NCBI GenBank assembly: GCA_009692205.1
Contig: SHZR01000011.1
Location: 1-64,000, forward strand
DNA: 64,000 nucleotides
Origin: Gemmatimonadota bacterium
GTDB taxonomy: Bacteria; Gemmatimonadota; Gemmatimonadetes; Longimicrobiales; Gaopeijiaceae
Reading direction: 5' to 3'
Positions 4,887-12,846 of this stretch are shown here, one piece after another; the first letter of the stretch is position 1, and each line of letters starts with the position of its first letter. The translations under genes and the position numbers were made by a program. The notes below the pieces were generated by a model. It was given only the letters and a program-made list of their open reading frames with translations, ran no database searches and was not told the DNA's origin.

Positions 4887-5851
4887 TCGCGTACGTGATG
4901 CTGTACACGGTTGCCGCAGGGCTGCCCATCCTGCTCGCGGCGCTGGCGGTGTCGTCCGTCCTCCGGCGATACGGAAGGTCGGAGAGAGGCGTTTGGCTGG
5001 CGGCGCTCGTGCTCGCGTTCGCGCTTCCGCTCGTCTCCCTGGTTCGACTCGGAGCCGGAAGCGCCGCCGCCTCAGGAGCTCTGCCCTCGACCGGCGTGAT
5101 CGGGCTGCCCGAAGTCGTGGCGATCCCCATCGAGCCGTCGGGTCTCGGGCTCGGCCTCGACGAGATCCTGCTCCTCGGCTGGCTCGCGGTCTCGGCGTTT
5201 CTCGTGCTTCGGTGGGCCGTCGGCTCGTTCCGACTCATGCGGGCACGGAGAGGATGGCACACGACGATGCTCGACGGAGTCTCCGTGTGGCTGACCGAGA
5301 ATCTCGGCCCGGCCGTCTCGGGAGTCATCCGGCCGCGGCTCCTCGTGCCATCGTGGATGCTCTCCATGCCCTGGGCACAACGTTCGCTCGTCCTGCTGCA
5401 TGAACAGGAGCATATCCGCGCTTGGGATCCGAGGTCATGCGGGGAATCTCTCCCTCGCCCCGGGCCTCAGCCATGTCCGAATGCGCCTCCCCGCGCGAAC
5501 GGCTCGGCGGGGTCGATCCTCAGTTCTCCACCGTCGCCGGATCCACCCGCGTCGGCGTCGCCGCCCCCGACACGATCGTCTCGGCCGCGCGCGCGATCGC
5601 ACGGATCGTGCTCACGAGGTGCGCCATGTCGAGCGTCGCGACCTCGTCGCTCACGCGGTGGTAGTCCGGGTCCGTGTCGATGGGGGTCGTCGAGATGGAG
5701 TGCGCCGGCACGCCGAGACGCGCGAGCGTCACGTTGTCGGAGCGCGAGAACAGCCGGTAGCTGGGATACGGGTCCGCCACGAATCGGTAGCCGGTCCCGT
5801 TGGCGGCCTGCTGCACGATCTGCCCGAAGGTGGACTGATCGAAGCCGGTGA
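4883..5851 (+). CDS. BlaR1-like M56 metallopeptidase, C-terminally lost (probable pseudogene)
   Basis: The first about 184 residues look like a BlaR1/M56 sensor protease: three hydrophobic segments (about 3-25, 37-57, 93-113), a juxtamembrane loop, and the zinc motif HEQEH followed by IRAWDPR. Normally a further membrane helix and the catalytic-domain remainder follow. Here similarity stops near 5435, and the still-open frame runs as Pro/Arg/Ser-rich nonsense into the 3' end of the oppositely oriented M28 gene (overlap 5520-5851). This looks like a deletion that removed the rest of the gene. Start ATG overlaps the blaI stop. Function as an inducible sensor is unlikely. Confidence 0.6.
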   Translation: MIAYVMLYTVAAGLPILLAALAVSSVLRRYGRSERGVWLAALVLAFALPLVSLVRLGAGSAAASGALPSTGVIGLPEVVAIPIEPSGLGLGLDEILLLGWLAVSAFLVLRWAVGSFRLMRARRGWHTTMLDGVSVWLTENLGPAVSGVIRPRLLVPSWMLSMPWAQRSLVLLHEQEHIRAWDPRSCGESLPRPGPQPCPNAPPRANGSAGSILSSPPSPDPPASASPPPTRSSRPRARSHGSCSRGAPCRASRPRRSRGGSPGPCRWGSSRWSAPARRDARASRCRSARTAGSWDTGPPRIGSRSRWRPAARSARRWTDRSR

Positions 5852-6863
5852 TCCACGCCGTGTTGGGCCCTGACGCGGCGGGCTTGCCGATCATCTCGAT
5901 GTTGAACATCGCGACGATCTGGTCGGCATCGAGCTGCCTGGAGTAGTGGCGCGAGCCGAAGCCGCCGGCCTCCTCGGCAGTGAAAGCCGCGAACAAGAGC
6001 GTGCGCTCGGGCGTGCCGCGCGCGGCGAAGTGCTTCGCGAGCGCCACCACCGCGGCCGTTCCCGAAGCGTCGTCGTTCGCACCATTGCCGATCGAATCTC
6101 CGAAGAGCGGTCGCTCGAAGCCGATGTGGTCGTAGTGCGAGGAGAAGAGCACGAACTCGTCGGTCCTGCGGCCGGGTAGCACGCCGACGACGTTGGCGAT
6201 CGGCTCCATGACGTCGCTGGCCGTGTGCGAGACCTGATAGGTGGCGTCGGGTCCCGCGGTGACCAGCCCCAGCACCACGGCGGCGCCTACGGCATCGGAC
6301 AACACGCGCACCGGTCGTCGGAAGATCTGCACGAGCGAGCCGAACCCCTCACGATGCGCCTCGTCGATGAGCACCAAGGCGTCGAACCCCGCGTTCGCCA
6401 CGCTCGTGACGGTCGTGAGAACGTCGTCGTCGGGACCGACGATGATCACGGGCACGTCCCCGGTGCGCCAATTGATGGAGCCGCCCCCGAGACGCATCGC
6501 GATCTGGTTCGGGAAGAGCGGACGTCCGTTCACGATCACGCGTCCCTCACCAGCCGTCAGCGTGCGGGTGCTGAAGCGCTGGAGATAGTTCTCGGCGCCC
6601 GCGGGGCTCTGGAGCCCGGCCGCGGCGAACTCGCGGGCGAGAAATTCGGCGGCGCGGACCGCATAGGGTGAGTATGCATCGCGGCCGCCCATGTCGTCGC
6701 TCGCCAGCGTGTTGATCACGCGCTCCACCAGTGCGCGATCGACATCGGGTGTTTGCTGCGCCACGGAGGCTGCCGCCGGTGCACAGCTGGCTGCCAGGAA
6801 CACCAGGGCGCCCACCGTCGGATGAAGCCCACGCACGCGCGTCGGTCTGACGAACATGTCCAT
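5520..6863 (-). CDS. Secreted M28-family zinc aminopeptidase
   Basis: The 447-residue exported peptidase has an N-terminal signal region with hydrophobic core GALVFLAASCAPAAA, then an M28 domain. Metal and catalytic motifs are in order: SSHYDHIG (about 240), NGANDDASG, the catalytic pair in FTAEEAGG, NIEMIGK (Glu in the place of the more usual Asp) and YHRVSDEV near the C-terminus. Such enzymes release amino acids from peptides in the periplasm or outside. The Cys in SCAPAA could be a lipidation site. It follows the phospholipid operon on the same strand after a 41-bp gap with a small tandem repeat, so read-through is possible. Confidence 0.9.
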   Translation of the reverse strand: MDMFVRPTRVRGLHPTVGALVFLAASCAPAAASVAQQTPDVDRALVERVINTLASDDMGGRDAYSPYAVRAAEFLAREFAAAGLQSPAGAENYLQRFSTRTLTAGEGRVIVNGRPLFPNQIAMRLGGGSINWRTGDVPVIIVGPDDDVLTTVTSVANAGFDALVLIDEAHREGFGSLVQIFRRPVRVLSDAVGAAVVLGLVTAGPDATYQVSHTASDVMEPIANVVGVLPGRRTDEFVLFSSHYDHIGFERPLFGDSIGNGANDDASGTAAVVALAKHFAARGTPERTLLFAAFTAEEAGGFGSRHYSRQLDADQIVAMFNIEMIGKPAASGPNTAWITGFDQSTFGQIVQQAANGTGYRFVADPYPSYRLFSRSDNVTLARLGVPAHSISTTPIDTDPDYHRVSDEVATLDMAHLVSTIRAIARAAETIVSGAATPTRVDPATVEN

Positions 6864-6904: not shown

Positions 6905-7636
6905 TCACTGCAGCCGCTTCGCGATCCAGACGGTGCGATACGCCGCCGTGCCGATGGTTCCCACTGCCACGAGCGTCATCAGCACCAAGAGAAGCGCGCC
7001 CTGCGACCAGCCCGACCCGGCCGCCACGATCGGATCGAGAATCCCTCCGAACCCAATGAGAAGCAAGCGCTCGGCCCTCTGCATGACACCGACCTTACAG
7101 ACCACACCCACGCTCTCGCCGCGCGCGCGTGCGTAGCTCACGAGCAGCGAGCCGCCGAGTCCGGCCGTCACCACCGCGAGCGCGGGCGTCGACGCTTGGA
7201 AGTACACCGCGAGCCCGACGAAGGCCCCCACCTCGGCGAAGCGATCGAGCGTCGAGTCCAGGAACGCGCCGCGCGGGCCCTCGACGCCCTGCGCACGTGC
7301 GATGCGGCCATCGAGGACGTCCGCGCCGCCGCCGAGCAGCACGGCCCACCCCCCCAGGCCGAGCCTCCCCGTCGCGAACGCCACGCCGGCAGCGACGCCG
7401 AACGCCACCCCCAAGAGGTTGAACGCTGTCGGCGAAAGCCGGAGACTCAACGCGAGGCGCTCGACGGGGCCGGCGAACCAGTAGAACCAGTTCCGCACGA
7501 AGCCCCCGAGCACGAAGGACCCCCGTTGCGCGATCTCGAGGGGATCGCGGCGGCCCGCGGCGCGCGCGGCGTAGATAGGCATCGATGCCAGCGCGCCCCC
7601 AAAGAACCCCAGCAGGATCGCCAGGTCGGTCCTCAC
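6905..7636 (-). CDS. CDP-alcohol phosphatidyltransferase family membrane enzyme
   Basis: The 243-residue multi-helix protein carries the family signature D-G-x2-A-R-x8-G-x3-D-x3-D as DGRIAR (109-114) to GAFLDSTLD (123-131), which binds the metal ions and the CDP moiety. Family members transfer a phosphatidyl group from CDP-diacylglycerol to an alcohol such as glycerol-3-phosphate or inositol phosphate; the acceptor cannot be read from the sequence. GTG 7636 is chosen as start: it has AAAGGAGAT upstream and overlaps the stop of the preceding CDP-DAG-synthase-like gene (GTGA). The operon PlsC-like, Tam41-like, CDP-alcohol transferase gives three consecutive steps of phospholipid synthesis. Confidence 0.88.
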   Translation of the reverse strand: MRTDLAILLGFFGGALASMPIYAARAAGRRDPLEIAQRGSFVLGGFVRNWFYWFAGPVERLALSLRLSPTAFNLLGVAFGVAAGVAFATGRLGLGGWAVLLGGGADVLDGRIARAQGVEGPRGAFLDSTLDRFAEVGAFVGLAVYFQASTPALAVVTAGLGGSLLVSYARARGESVGVVCKVGVMQRAERLLLIGFGGILDPIVAAGSGWSQGALLLVLMTLVAVGTIGTAAYRTVWIAKRLQ

Positions 7637-8571
7637 GAGCGGATCTCCTTTCGGGGCCGCGTGAGTAGAACGTGGATCACCCTCGGCCAGAGGAAGATGA
7701 GCGGCAGCGTCCTCTCGAGGCGCGTGAGGACGATGGTCCGGCCGGTATGGCGCTCGACCTTCTGCACCAAGTACGGCAGCCAATTCGCGAAAGTGACCAT
7801 GTGCTTGAACCAGCGCAGCGTGGCCCTCGTCTTCGAGCGCAGGAAATAGTGCCGCCAACGGCGACGCTCGGCATTCGACGCCGGAGTGGCGGGGCGGTAG
7901 CTATCTCCTTGGCGCGCCAGCGCTCCGGACGCCACACCGCGCTCGAGCACCCCCTGGAAGGTGTCGCGAAAGTGGTCGACTTGGGTGTCGAAGATGCGGT
8001 GCGCCCGATCCTGGGCCTCGGGACGGAACTCACCGCGATAGCACACCTCGAGCAGCCGCCGACCGAGTCCCGCCGCGTCTACAGCTTCATCCAGATAGGG
8101 GATCATCCACGTGAGGACGTCGGCCCGCGCGGCGGCGAGTTGGCTTGCGACCCAGGCCGCGTCGGCCTCGCTCCAGGCCCATAACGTATGCACCCGCTGC
8201 ACGAGCCGCCCCAGCAGGAAGTGGTCGGGCGGGCGGGGCCCGAGCGCACGCTCGAAGTGCCTCGCGCTCACAATCAGGCACTTGGCGATGCCGGCCTGCC
8301 CGCCCTCCGGTGCGAACGCGATCGTGGTCGGCGGCAGCACCCGCGCGAGCCACGTCATGAGCCAAACCGGCCGGTGCATCTCGCCCGCGGCCGCCTGGGC
8401 GCTGTAGAACGCTCGGTAGTCATCCACGAGGACGGCGAAATCGAAGGCGCTGTGCCGGCCGGGCCGCGCCCCGTGGAGCTGCGAGCCATAGAGCAGCACG
8501 GCGCGGACGCTGCCTCCGGCGGCGACGACGAGCCGTCCGGCGAGCACCTCAGCGGGTGAGCTCTCGGTCAC
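7633..8571 (-). CDS. Tam41-like phosphatidate cytidylyltransferase (CDP-DAG synthase)
   Basis: The 312-residue protein resembles mitochondrial Tam41/Mmp37, the nucleotidyltransferase-fold enzyme making CDP-diacylglycerol from phosphatidic acid and CTP. Matching blocks are VLLYGS (25-30), FDFAVLVDD (43-51; Tam41 has a similar YGSG...DF.F.VDD), the GRLxxxV block (121-127), and the segment YRGEFR (178-183) followed by about 25 residues and DHFRDTFQGVL (199-209), which parallels Tam41 SGDFRM...HFRELYGSIL. It is soluble by eye, unlike CdsA. GTG start overlaps the plsC-like stop and its end overlaps the CDP-alcohol transferase start, so substrate and product enzymes flank it. Family assignment is by recalled motif comparison. 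Confidence 0.72.
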   Translation of the reverse strand: MTESSPAEVLAGRLVVAAGGSVRAVLLYGSQLHGARPGRHSAFDFAVLVDDYRAFYSAQAAAGEMHRPVWLMTWLARVLPPTTIAFAPEGGQAGIAKCLIVSARHFERALGPRPPDHFLLGRLVQRVHTLWAWSEADAAWVASQLAAARADVLTWMIPYLDEAVDAAGLGRRLLEVCYRGEFRPEAQDRAHRIFDTQVDHFRDTFQGVLERGVASGALARQGDSYRPATPASNAERRRWRHYFLRSKTRATLRWFKHMVTFANWLPYLVQKVERHTGRTIVLTRLERTLPLIFLWPRVIHVLLTRPRKEIRS

Positions 8572-9398
8572 GCGGCCGCGGGCCCCCGACGCATCGACGC
8601 GAGGCTCTGCACCATCATCTCATGAATGTGCTCGATGAACGCGTCTGGGTTGGCCGTCGGGTCGGTCCACTGCAGGACTCCTGCGTGCTCGATCTTCCCT
8701 CGCACTTCGCTCACGTGGTGAATGAAGTCCTTGATCTTCGCGGCCCGCCAGAACCCGTCAGCAACGTACACGTACACGGTCCAGGAACGCGCGGCGAGGA
8801 GGTGCGAGAGCGCCCCGCGCTTGAAGCGACCGATCTCCCCGTCTTTGGTGCGGGTCCCTTCCGGGAAAACGGCGAGGGGCACCTGGCTCTCCCGCGCGGC
8901 GGTAGCCAACTCCTCCAGGGAGACACGGATGACCTCCGCCTTTGCCCCCGGGTTGACCACCGGGTATTGATACAGCCTGATCATGTGCGAGATGAGAGGG
9001 ATCCGGCGGCTGTAGCGCGCCCGGGTGACGATGCGGGGATATCCCCCATCGGCGACCGTCTGGACCACCAGGGGAATATCGATGAGGGATTGGTGGTTCA
9101 TGACCACGAGGACACCCGGCCGGCACGGAACGATCCTCAGAGGCCGCGGGATGACGCTTCCTGAGAGGAAGGCCAAGGGCCGAGTCATGAGCCAAGCCAT
9201 TATCTTGATCCACCCTCCGAGGACACGGAAGCGGGCCGACGGCCGGAGCTTCACCCACGGTGCGATGACGAAGCGCTGCACGACGTCACCCAGCGCGACC
9301 GTCAGGGATATGAAGGCCACCGTGAGCCATCCTCGGACCATCGAATGCAGCCTTCCGCTTGCGCGGCTCGAAGGGGCGCGAAGGCTAATCGTCGCCAC
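8568..9398 (-). CDS. 1-acyl-sn-glycerol-3-phosphate acyltransferase family protein (PlsC-like)
   Basis: The 276-residue membrane-associated acyltransferase has the catalytic motif NHQSLID (H102, D107), the glycerol-phosphate binding motif FPEGTRTKDG at about 177 and a hydrophobic N-terminal segment. The family acylates lysophosphatidic acid to phosphatidic acid. It is the first gene of an overlapping three-gene operon whose next enzymes would convert phosphatidate to CDP-DAG and then to phospholipid. Start may be GTG 9398 or ATG 9341 (residue 20); no clear ribosome site decides. The divergent gene at 9425 lies 26 bp away, so promoters must be inside or overlapping. Confidence 0.9.
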   Translation of the reverse strand: MATISLRAPSSRASGRLHSMVRGWLTVAFISLTVALGDVVQRFVIAPWVKLRPSARFRVLGGWIKIMAWLMTRPLAFLSGSVIPRPLRIVPCRPGVLVVMNHQSLIDIPLVVQTVADGGYPRIVTRARYSRRIPLISHMIRLYQYPVVNPGAKAEVIRVSLEELATAARESQVPLAVFPEGTRTKDGEIGRFKRGALSHLLAARSWTVYVYVADGFWRAAKIKDFIHHVSEVRGKIEHAGVLQWTDPTANPDAFIEHIHEMMVQSLASMRRGPAAA

Positions 9399-9424: not shown

Positions 9425-10096
9425 ATGAGCCCCAACGAGTACACCTACTACCGCTATCGGGTGTGCGTGGGCGCCTATTTCGAGATGCCCACTGCCGATG
9501 CGAGGAACCTCATCCCCAATCATCTCGAGCCGCTCGAGGTGCTGCACGAGCGCAGCATCCTGGCGGTGACCGCGTTCGACTTCACCGAGAGTCTGGTCGG
9601 CCCGTACCAGGAGGTGGTGCTCGCAGTCGTCGTGCCACCGATGGTCCAGCCGGGCAAGCCGCTTCCGAAGGCTGCGTTTTCCCCGTTCATGGTGGGTACG
9701 TCGACGGAGGCCTCGAGGGAGCACGCAAGGGAGCGGTGGCACCTGCCCCACTACATGAGGAATCTCGACATCTCGTTCGACGAGACGCCCGGCGAGGTGA
9801 GCGTGCACGTGCAGGACGCGGGGTCGCCGGTCTTGGACCTCACGGTGACTGATTTCGAGTTCGAGGAGACTCGAAACGTCTACAGCTGCTTCACCGTGGA
9901 TGATGGCCACCGCTTCAAGGTCAACATCTACATGGAGGCGCCGCACACGGAGCACGAGGAGGAAAGGGGCTCGGTCCAACTGTACGAGCACCCCATCACC
10001 GCAGGCCTCTCGATCGCCGAGGTCAACGCCTACCCATTCCGGGAGGAGTGGTACAGGGCGGGCCTGCAGACGTTCGAGCGCCTGGAGAGCTTCTGA
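9425..10096 (+). CDS. Protein of unknown function, acetoacetate-decarboxylase-like fold possible
   Basis: The 223-residue soluble protein has no signal or membrane segment. Its start, YRYRVCVGAYFEMPTADAR, and the later pattern of beta-strand-like segments with LPHYMRNLDISFDETPGEV loosely recall acetoacetate-decarboxylase-superfamily proteins. No catalytic lysine context could be recognised, so this is only a suggestion. It is divergent from the phospholipid operon, and its 3' end overlaps the lipid-kinase-like gene by 49 bp if GTG 10048 is used. That placement hints at a role in lipid metabolism. Confidence 0.6.
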   Translation: MSPNEYTYYRYRVCVGAYFEMPTADARNLIPNHLEPLEVLHERSILAVTAFDFTESLVGPYQEVVLAVVVPPMVQPGKPLPKAAFSPFMVGTSTEASREHARERWHLPHYMRNLDISFDETPGEVSVHVQDAGSPVLDLTVTDFEFEETRNVYSCFTVDDGHRFKVNIYMEAPHTEHEEERGSVQLYEHPITAGLSIAEVNAYPFREEWYRAGLQTFERLESF

Positions 10097-11082
10097 CGGC
10101 GGGCCGTCGGCACTTCGTGATCTTCAACCCCGCGTCGGGGCGAGGACGCGGCCGGCGGCGAATCGACACCTATCGGCGCCTGCTCGAGGATGCCTTGGAC
10201 CGGGTGGACTTTGCGACGACGGCCGGGCCCGGCCACGAGCGGGACCTCGCCCGCCGAGCGGCCGACGACGGCTACGACGTGGTGGTCGGGGTCGGTGGCG
10301 ACGGTACTTGGAGCAATGTCGCAGACGGACTCGTCGCCAGCGGCAGGGTGGACGTTGTCCTCGGGGTGCTCCCGAACGGAACCGGCAACGATTTCGGCAG
10401 GAATCTCGGGTTCGACCCTCGCAACGCCGCGGACGCGGTCGCAGTGCTCGCCAAGGGTGAGGTTCGCCGGGTTGACGTGGGCCGCGTGGAGTCCGCGAGC
10501 GCGGCGGACCGCTCGCCCGACCTCTGGGAGTCGAGGCATTTCCTCAACCTCGTGGGGTTCGGGTTCGACGTCGCGGTCATCGATGCGGCAGCGGGGGCGC
10601 GCTTCCTGAAGGGGGAAGTGCTCTACAAGGTGACCGCGCTCCAGCAGCTTTTCCGCTTCGAGGGCTTCCGCTGCGAGGTCGAAGCGGTCGGGGGCGTTCG
10701 CCGGGAGGGACGCCACCTGATGCTGACCGTCTCGAACGGCCGCTACTTCGGCGGTGGCTTTCCCATCGCTCCCGCCGCGGATGTCAGTGACGGCCGGCTG
10801 CACGCCTGCAGGATCTCGGACGCCGGGCCGTTCACGCGGTTGCGCCTGTTCAACCTCGCTGAGAGGGGCCGCCACGTCGGCTCGGAGCGCGTGGAGATCG
10901 TCGACGCACCCCACCTGCGCCTGCGCTTCGACGCGCCGCCGCGCTTCGAGCTCGACGGCGACGTGCGCCACGCCCGCGAGGCCGAGGTCGAGGTACGAGT
11001 CCTCCCGGGCGCACTCGGCGTGGTGGCGCCCGCGTTGGAAGCCGGGTCGACAGCCGCGCACTCTGCACCACAAAGTACTTGA
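10048..11082 (+). CDS. Diacylglycerol kinase-family lipid kinase
   Basis: The product carries the DAGK catalytic (YegS/DgkB-type) motifs: FNPASGRGRG near the N-terminus, the nucleotide loop GVGGDGTWSNVADGL (about 81-95) and the conserved PNGTGNDFGRNLG (about 110-122). These enzymes phosphorylate diacylglycerol or related lipids, here plausibly supplying phosphatidate to the neighbouring CDP-DAG pathway. Start is uncertain. GTG 10048 overlaps the previous gene by 49 bp, with GGGAGGA immediately before it; a start nearer the first motif would need CTG 10093. The C-terminal half contains the usual beta-rich domain, with GGGFPIAPAADVSDG. Confidence 0.85.
   Translation: MVQGGPADVRAPGELLTAGRRHFVIFNPASGRGRGRRRIDTYRRLLEDALDRVDFATTAGPGHERDLARRAADDGYDVVVGVGGDGTWSNVADGLVASGRVDVVLGVLPNGTGNDFGRNLGFDPRNAADAVAVLAKGEVRRVDVGRVESASAADRSPDLWESRHFLNLVGFGFDVAVIDAAAGARFLKGEVLYKVTALQQLFRFEGFRCEVEAVGGVRREGRHLMLTVSNGRYFGGGFPIAPAADVSDGRLHACRISDAGPFTRLRLFNLAERGRHVGSERVEIVDAPHLRLRFDAPPRFELDGDVRHAREAEVEVRVLPGALGVVAPALEAGSTAAHSAPQST

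Positions 11083-12135: not shown

Positions 12136-12846
<711 letters not shown>

Follow-up and report, generated by a model that had tools for sequence, protein, structure and literature searches.

A conserved lipid operon of Gemmatimonadota links a Tam41-type nucleotidyltransferase, related to proteins in the CpgC position, to a transferase resembling phosphatidylinositol-phosphate synthase

The window, i.e. the whole stretch of 64,000 nucleotides analyzed here (contig SHZR01000011.1 of the Gemmatimonadota assembly GCA_009692205.1), harbors the following lipid-related genes:

8568..9398, minus strand: PlsC-like acyltransferase of 276 aa, encoded at the start of the operon (Pfam Acyltransferase, 4e-16)
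7633..8571, minus strand: CpgC/Tam41-like nucleotidyltransferase (NTase), 312 aa, predicted CTP:lipid-phosphate cytidylyltransferase
6905..7636, minus strand: inositol-phosphate-type (PIPS/AIPS) CDP-alcohol phosphotransferase of 243 aa, with a GTG start at 7636
9425..10096, plus strand: acetoacetate-decarboxylase (ADC)-like protein, 223 aa, divergent from PlsC (PF06314, 2e-5, below cut-off)
10048..11082, plus strand: lipid kinase of the DAGK_cat/YegS type with an uncertain start codon, which may supply the lipid phosphate

The three-gene lipid operon is real and its gene set is conserved across Gemmatimonadota. At the PlsC/NTase as well as at the NTase/CDP-alcohol transferase junction a 4-bp GTGA overlap is present, in agreement with the sequence-only reading, which had described the three genes as overlapping by 4 bp each. 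Conservation was investigated in 34 loci around the NTase gene, which derive from 33 of the 98 genomes searched and one further MAG; one of the 33 NTase-positive genomes contributes two loci or partial loci. The CDP-alcohol transferase gene was located near the NTase gene in 32 and the plsC-like gene in 28 of these 34 loci, several of which stop at contig ends, while the ADC-like gene was found near the operon in 30 and the lipid kinase gene in 27. Order and strand of the operon were kept across the loci far above chance, and a family-profile search of a phylum sample detected the NTase in 49 of 298 genomes. A gene for an M28-family peptidase (5520-6863) lies 3' of the operon on the same strand, a linkage limited to the same genus (3/34 loci).

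The PlsC-like protein carries the motifs NHQSLID and FPEGTR and matched TIGR00530 (9e-14) under the cut-off of that model; two more acyltransferase-family genes are present elsewhere in the genome. The lipid kinase matched DAGK_cat (2e-31) and YegS_C (5e-26) and scored over the cut-off of TIGR00147. A paralogue of the ADC-like protein (42% identity) is encoded elsewhere in the genome next to an SPT-like gene (G000:C32; L219 4565-5227).

The NTase had been described as the Tam41-like enzyme of a lipid operon. Fold, pocket motifs and operon context support this description, whereas the protein's own score against Pfam Tam41 (PF09139) stayed below the cut-off (0.08, 12.7 bits; cut-off 24). Within the family a single orthologue (L030, one of 35 members) exceeded it with 34 vs 24 bits (2.6e-8). 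The Pfam Tam41 HMM is too narrow here, because it matched 3 of the 298 genomes of the phylum sample, all under the cut-off, and none of the proteins of the window's own genome. The best PDB match of the family profile was SpTam41, which was not significant (E 0.14, 14.7 bits); a profile comparison of the NTase family with two Tam41 sequences gave P 3.9e-5 over 182 columns. An AlphaFold model was built from an input alignment of five rows (window and related-locus sequences), which limits its quality; its pLDDT was moderate (72.5), with low values in two loops close to the pocket (31-41 and 181-187). When this model was subjected to Foldseek, ranks 1-3 were all Tam41 structures (7ecd, 6ig4 from yeast and 6ig2; probability 1.00, TM 0.51-0.60; E 2.9e-5 for 7ecd and 7.2e-5 for 6ig4). 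These were its only significant PDB matches, so that the structural comparison bears out the proposed relationship, and the next NTase family, AadA, reached a TM of about 0.25. As modelled, the NTase adopts the fold of Tam41, in which an NTase domain is combined with a winged-helix domain.

Invariant in the NTase family are G29, S30, D44, K97, R122, E181 and R183. With the exception of E181, which corresponds to Asp, both Tam41 structures have the same residues at the aligned positions. Almost all family members carry a hydrophobic residue at +2 of D44, and only one of the three acids of the NTase fold is evident; Tam41 likewise retains a single one of the three canonical acids (PMC11646218). 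The NTase has in common with Tam41/TAMM41 (SpTam41 6ig2/6ig4; Firmicutes 7ecd) the NTase plus C-terminal helical fold, the single-acid signature and the motifs GYGS, ID, KYG, GRFQKP and Y.GD.R, whereas the likeness in sequence is remote. As regards a basic amphipathic segment for membrane binding, as in Tam41, the C-terminus, WPRVIHVLLTRPRKE, is basic/hydrophobic and conserved, has a hydrophobic moment of 0.6 and lies in a poorly modelled region. Weak Pfam matches to Polbeta and Adenyl_transf and an NCBIfam MntA match (0.035) would fit a non-lipid nucleotidyltransferase of the aminoglycoside or MntA type that is in the operon by chance. This is very improbable given the specific likeness to Tam41, with other NTase families at a TM of about 0.25, the preservation of the operon across many genera, the occurrence in 49/298 genomes and a homology to CpgC-type proteins that extends over the full length. 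Fold and context also speak against a toxin-antitoxin or aminoglycoside enzyme.

The sequence-only reading had placed the NTase in the role of CdsA. However, a canonical cdsA gene was found in the same genome (G000:C56:154983-155831, E 1.5e-48) within the neighborhood frr-cdsA-dxr-rseP, and since it encodes the full CDS signature, the operon is no substitute for CdsA. The gene was detected in 94 of the 98 genomes searched, including all 70 good-quality relatives, which rules out its loss or replacement. A bacterial Tam41 is also no novelty as such, since 7ecd is a Firmicutes Tam41, for which formation of CDP-DAG was reported (Kimura 2022, cited in PMC11646218). The uppS gene of the window (12136-12846) lies near the ADC-like and lipid-kinase genes with an HTH gene between, as found in 11/34 loci. 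As had been noted, it has no adjoining cdsA, yet cdsA sits elsewhere in the genome; uppS appears to have been relocated, while cdsA remains in frr-cdsA-dxr-rseP on another contig.

With CdsA and the NTase coexisting, the pathway proposed before could persist as an extra route, in which the NTase would be a second CDP-DAG synthase that turns phosphatidate, supplied by the PlsC-like enzyme or the DAG kinase, into CDP-DAG for the synthesis of phosphatidylinositol by the PIPS-like enzyme. The activity cited for the characterized bacterial Tam41 and the position of PlsC at the start of the operon are in line with this, but CdsA already supplies CDP-DAG. Phosphatidate is the main rival backbone to the one favored below, although we regard this route as unlikely.

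The relatives of the NTase point in another direction. By tblastn of a plasmid collection, homologues from Roseomonas and Pseudomonas were obtained (2e-12 and 3e-11). The Gemmatimonadota NTase profile matched these proteins over positions 2-299 of 303 with best domains of 90.9-113.7 bits (E 3e-31 to 2e-36 in a small test set), far over its Tam41 score. In Roseomonas, the genes are ordered CDP-alcohol transferase - lipid kinase - NTase, followed on the opposite strand by genes for an SPT-type aminotransferase and for an acyl carrier protein, with LptF/LptG and a metallophosphoesterase nearby; the Pseudomonas plasmid carries a kinase-NTase pair with LptF/LptG. The Roseomonas order cpgA-cpgB-cpgC|spt-acp agrees with the published Caulobacter orders cpgA-cpgB-cpgC and spt-acpR (PMC11324152), and it is by this gene order, not by Caulobacter sequence, that the Roseomonas protein is called CpgC here. 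CpgB is a ceramide kinase. CpgC (Caulobacter CC_1161 / CCNA_01219) is needed genetically for ceramide-phosphoglycerate and has no assigned activity (PMC12275187). Its need in the conversion of ceramide-1-phosphate to the head-group product is known from genetic evidence in Caulobacter only (PMC11324152, PMC12275187), and one group proposed that it forms NDP-activated ceramide.

By sequence comparison, the closest relatives of the NTase that were found are thus proteobacterial proteins in the CpgC position, nearer than Tam41, and the suggestion that the operon might shed light on where the mitochondrial enzyme came from loses its footing. Identity to these CpgC-position proteins is 25-33%, with homology over the full length, with the motifs YGS, D, K, R and Y..E.R in common. 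In both types of cluster the gene adjoins a lipid kinase, a CDP-alcohol transferase is present in the cluster, and an SPT-type gene is linked in Roseomonas as well as in several Gemmatimonadota clusters. In contrast to the CpgC clusters, the Gemmatimonadota partner is a transferase of the inositol-phosphate type instead of CpgA, the NTase gene comes after a PlsC-like one, and LptF/LptG and the metallophosphoesterase were not seen beside the operon. The window kinase gave no BLAST match to the Roseomonas and Pseudomonas kinases in the CpgB position. No phage homologues of the NTase were found. The plasmids (L186, L187 and L188; Roseomonas, Pseudomonas) carry sets of the ceramide-phosphoglycerate type, consisting of kinase, CpgC-type NTase, LptF/LptG, metallophosphoesterase and CDP-alcohol transferase.

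The CDP-alcohol transferase of the operon looks, in sequence, like a phosphatidylinositol-phosphate synthase. It matched CDP-OH_P_transf (3e-10), carries the signature D..DG..AR...G...D...D, and its best solved relatives are the mycobacterial and Renibacterium PIP synthases (E 7e-23). Conserved are D108, D111, G112, R116, D129, D133, S169, R192 and R236 (A3 numbering), and the residues aligned with S132, R155 and R195 of MtPIPS, whose roles toward inositol phosphate were described in PMC4634129, are kept. Its scores lie below the NCBIfam equivalog cut-offs (PIPSynth, 96 vs 170; archaetidylinositol phosphate synthase, 124 vs 180), and it is 38% identical to the MIPS-linked PIPS paralogue. With the PIP synthases (6h53, 5d92) and archaetidylinositol-phosphate synthase it has in common the CDP-alcohol signature, the equivalents of S132/R155/R195 and a MIPS in the genome, whereas an extra N-terminal segment of ~45 residues and the coupling to the NTase set it apart from PIP synthases.

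MIPS was detected in 94/98 genomes. A PIPS gene adjoins it in 58 of 65 NTase-negative genomes vs 9 of 33 NTase-positive genomes, and in 23 NTase-positive genomes examined the gap between prmC and MIPS no longer contains canonical PIPS. Where PIPS was lost, this gap usually measures about 430-550 bp, vs about 1050-1300 bp. In one genome with the NTase operon (G032), a 43-residue C-terminal PIPS remnant is left just upstream of MIPS (L159 (G032:C11), about 1219-1443). The gap shrinkage, the remnant and the PIPS counts suggest that inositol-1-phosphate is now consumed by the operon enzyme instead. The association of canonical-PIPS loss with the NTase (Fisher p 9e-10) overstates the evidence, because on the MIPS tree the loss happened only about twice; in phylogeny-aware tests the independent events were too few for significance, and the co-occurrence statistics are supportive only. 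A close paralogue of canonical PIPS, which normally uses CDP-DAG, that seems to replace it would also suit a CDP-DAG-forming NTase; that the nearest relatives of the NTase lie in sphingolipid clusters argues against such an activity.

An SPT-like partner (alpha-oxoamine synthase) was found by searching with the Roseomonas SPT. In six genomes (G008, G015, G033, G048, G067 and G069) its gene is part of the cluster, flanked by the ADC-like gene on one side and by PlsC (or the NTase) on the other; two of these, G067 and G069, represent another family of the order. In four others (G006, G010, G018 and G023), SPT-like, ADC and kinase genes form a run at a separate locus. In the genome of the window the gene lies on another contig (C32:94217-95566) and adjoins the second ADC-like gene, and in close relatives, too, it is found apart from the operon, together with a second ADC-like gene. 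Among solved structures, the best relative of the SPT-like protein is the serine palmitoyltransferase 3a2b (E 5e-79). The PLP motifs of the SPT-like protein are intact (TFSKS, DEAHS, HAS), but its scores stayed under every NCBIfam equivalog cut-off (SPT, 346 bits with a cut-off of 640; bioF slightly higher, also below cut-off). The gene was detected in 29/33 NTase-positive vs 7/65 NTase-negative genomes and, among good-quality members of the same family, in 23/24 vs 1/15; phylogeny-aware, this corresponds to 4 independent pairs, too few for significance. Four NTase-positive genomes have no SPT-like gene, including the near-complete G043, in which the cluster lies on a 4.1-Mb contig. In G006, which carries the SPT-like gene and was counted as NTase-negative, the CDP-alcohol transferase of the operon lies at a contig end, and the NTase may be absent from the assembly rather than the genome. 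Three genomes of family f3 (G071, G073 and G083) have an SPT-like gene with 55% identity and gave no match to the NTase over its full length.

That divergent members, among them ones from another family of the order, have the SPT-like gene within the cluster further disfavors CDP-DAG as the product. Phosphatidate, the substrate assumed by the sequence-only reading, is accordingly not the most likely one on these sequence grounds, as the SPT-like, lipid-kinase and CpgC-type context makes another substrate likelier. The NTase might also activate a different lipid phosphate for the PIPS-like enzyme, such as one with a long-chain base derived from cysteate or another amino acid, or a lyso- or ether-lipid. 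This would be compatible with a synthase that falls clearly in no NCBIfam equivalog and with the uncharacterized ADC-like protein and PlsC-like acceptor. As there is no positive sign of another backbone and the synthase has a serine palmitoyltransferase as its best solved relative, we consider it quite improbable.

We propose, with about even confidence, that the operon is the head-group half of a six-gene cluster that would yield a phosphoinositol(-phosphate) sphingolipid through a CDP-lipid. In this cluster, the genes for the SPT-family alpha-oxoamine synthase, the ADC-like protein and the YegS-type kinase are divergent from those for the PlsC-like protein, the NTase and the CDP-alcohol transferase. 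From the homology, synteny and co-occurrence observed, we infer all substrates and products of the pathway as follows. The SPT-like enzyme would form a long-chain base, which would be acylated by an acyltransferase, possibly the PlsC-like protein, and the lipid kinase would generate a lipid phosphate. The links to an SPT-like enzyme and to CpgC-type proteins make a sphingoid/ceramide backbone probable. From CTP and this lipid phosphate the NTase would produce a CDP-lipid (CDP-ceramide or similar) and pyrophosphate, and the PIPS-like enzyme would let L-myo-inositol-1-phosphate, provided by MIPS, displace CMP to give a phosphoinositol-phosphate lipid.

CpgC represents a genetically required, biochemically undefined step of bacterial phosphosphingolipid synthesis. 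An independently arranged second cluster now brings the CpgC family together with a lipid kinase and a transferase of the inositol-phosphate type. It predicts one reaction family-wide, CTP + lipid phosphate -> CDP-lipid, and also inositol (sphingo)lipids in Gemmatimonadota; neither was found reported in the literature searched, which covered few subscription journals.

In the Bacteroides cluster BT_1522-1526, inositol lipids, including an inositol sphingolipid, are likewise based on MIPS/PIPS (PMC9246714). There, however, the AUR1-like BT_1522 is linked to phosphoinositol on ceramide, and no Tam41/CpgC-like enzyme is described in the cluster (PMC9246714). It is conceivable, though we hold this more tentatively than the six-gene pathway, that Gemmatimonadota make inositol sphingolipids via a direct CDP-ceramide route rather than by AUR1-type transfer from PI, and that CpgC proteins are the missing CDP-ceramide synthases. 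Such a route would comprise a ceramide kinase, a CTP:ceramide-phosphate cytidylyltransferase and an inositol-1-phosphate transferase. A CDP-inositol route, with the NTase forming CDP-inositol as proposed for some Bacteroidetes (PMC9246714), is less likely for the operon, in which the lipid-phosphate NTase fold and the inositol-phosphate-binding arginines of PIPS are kept.
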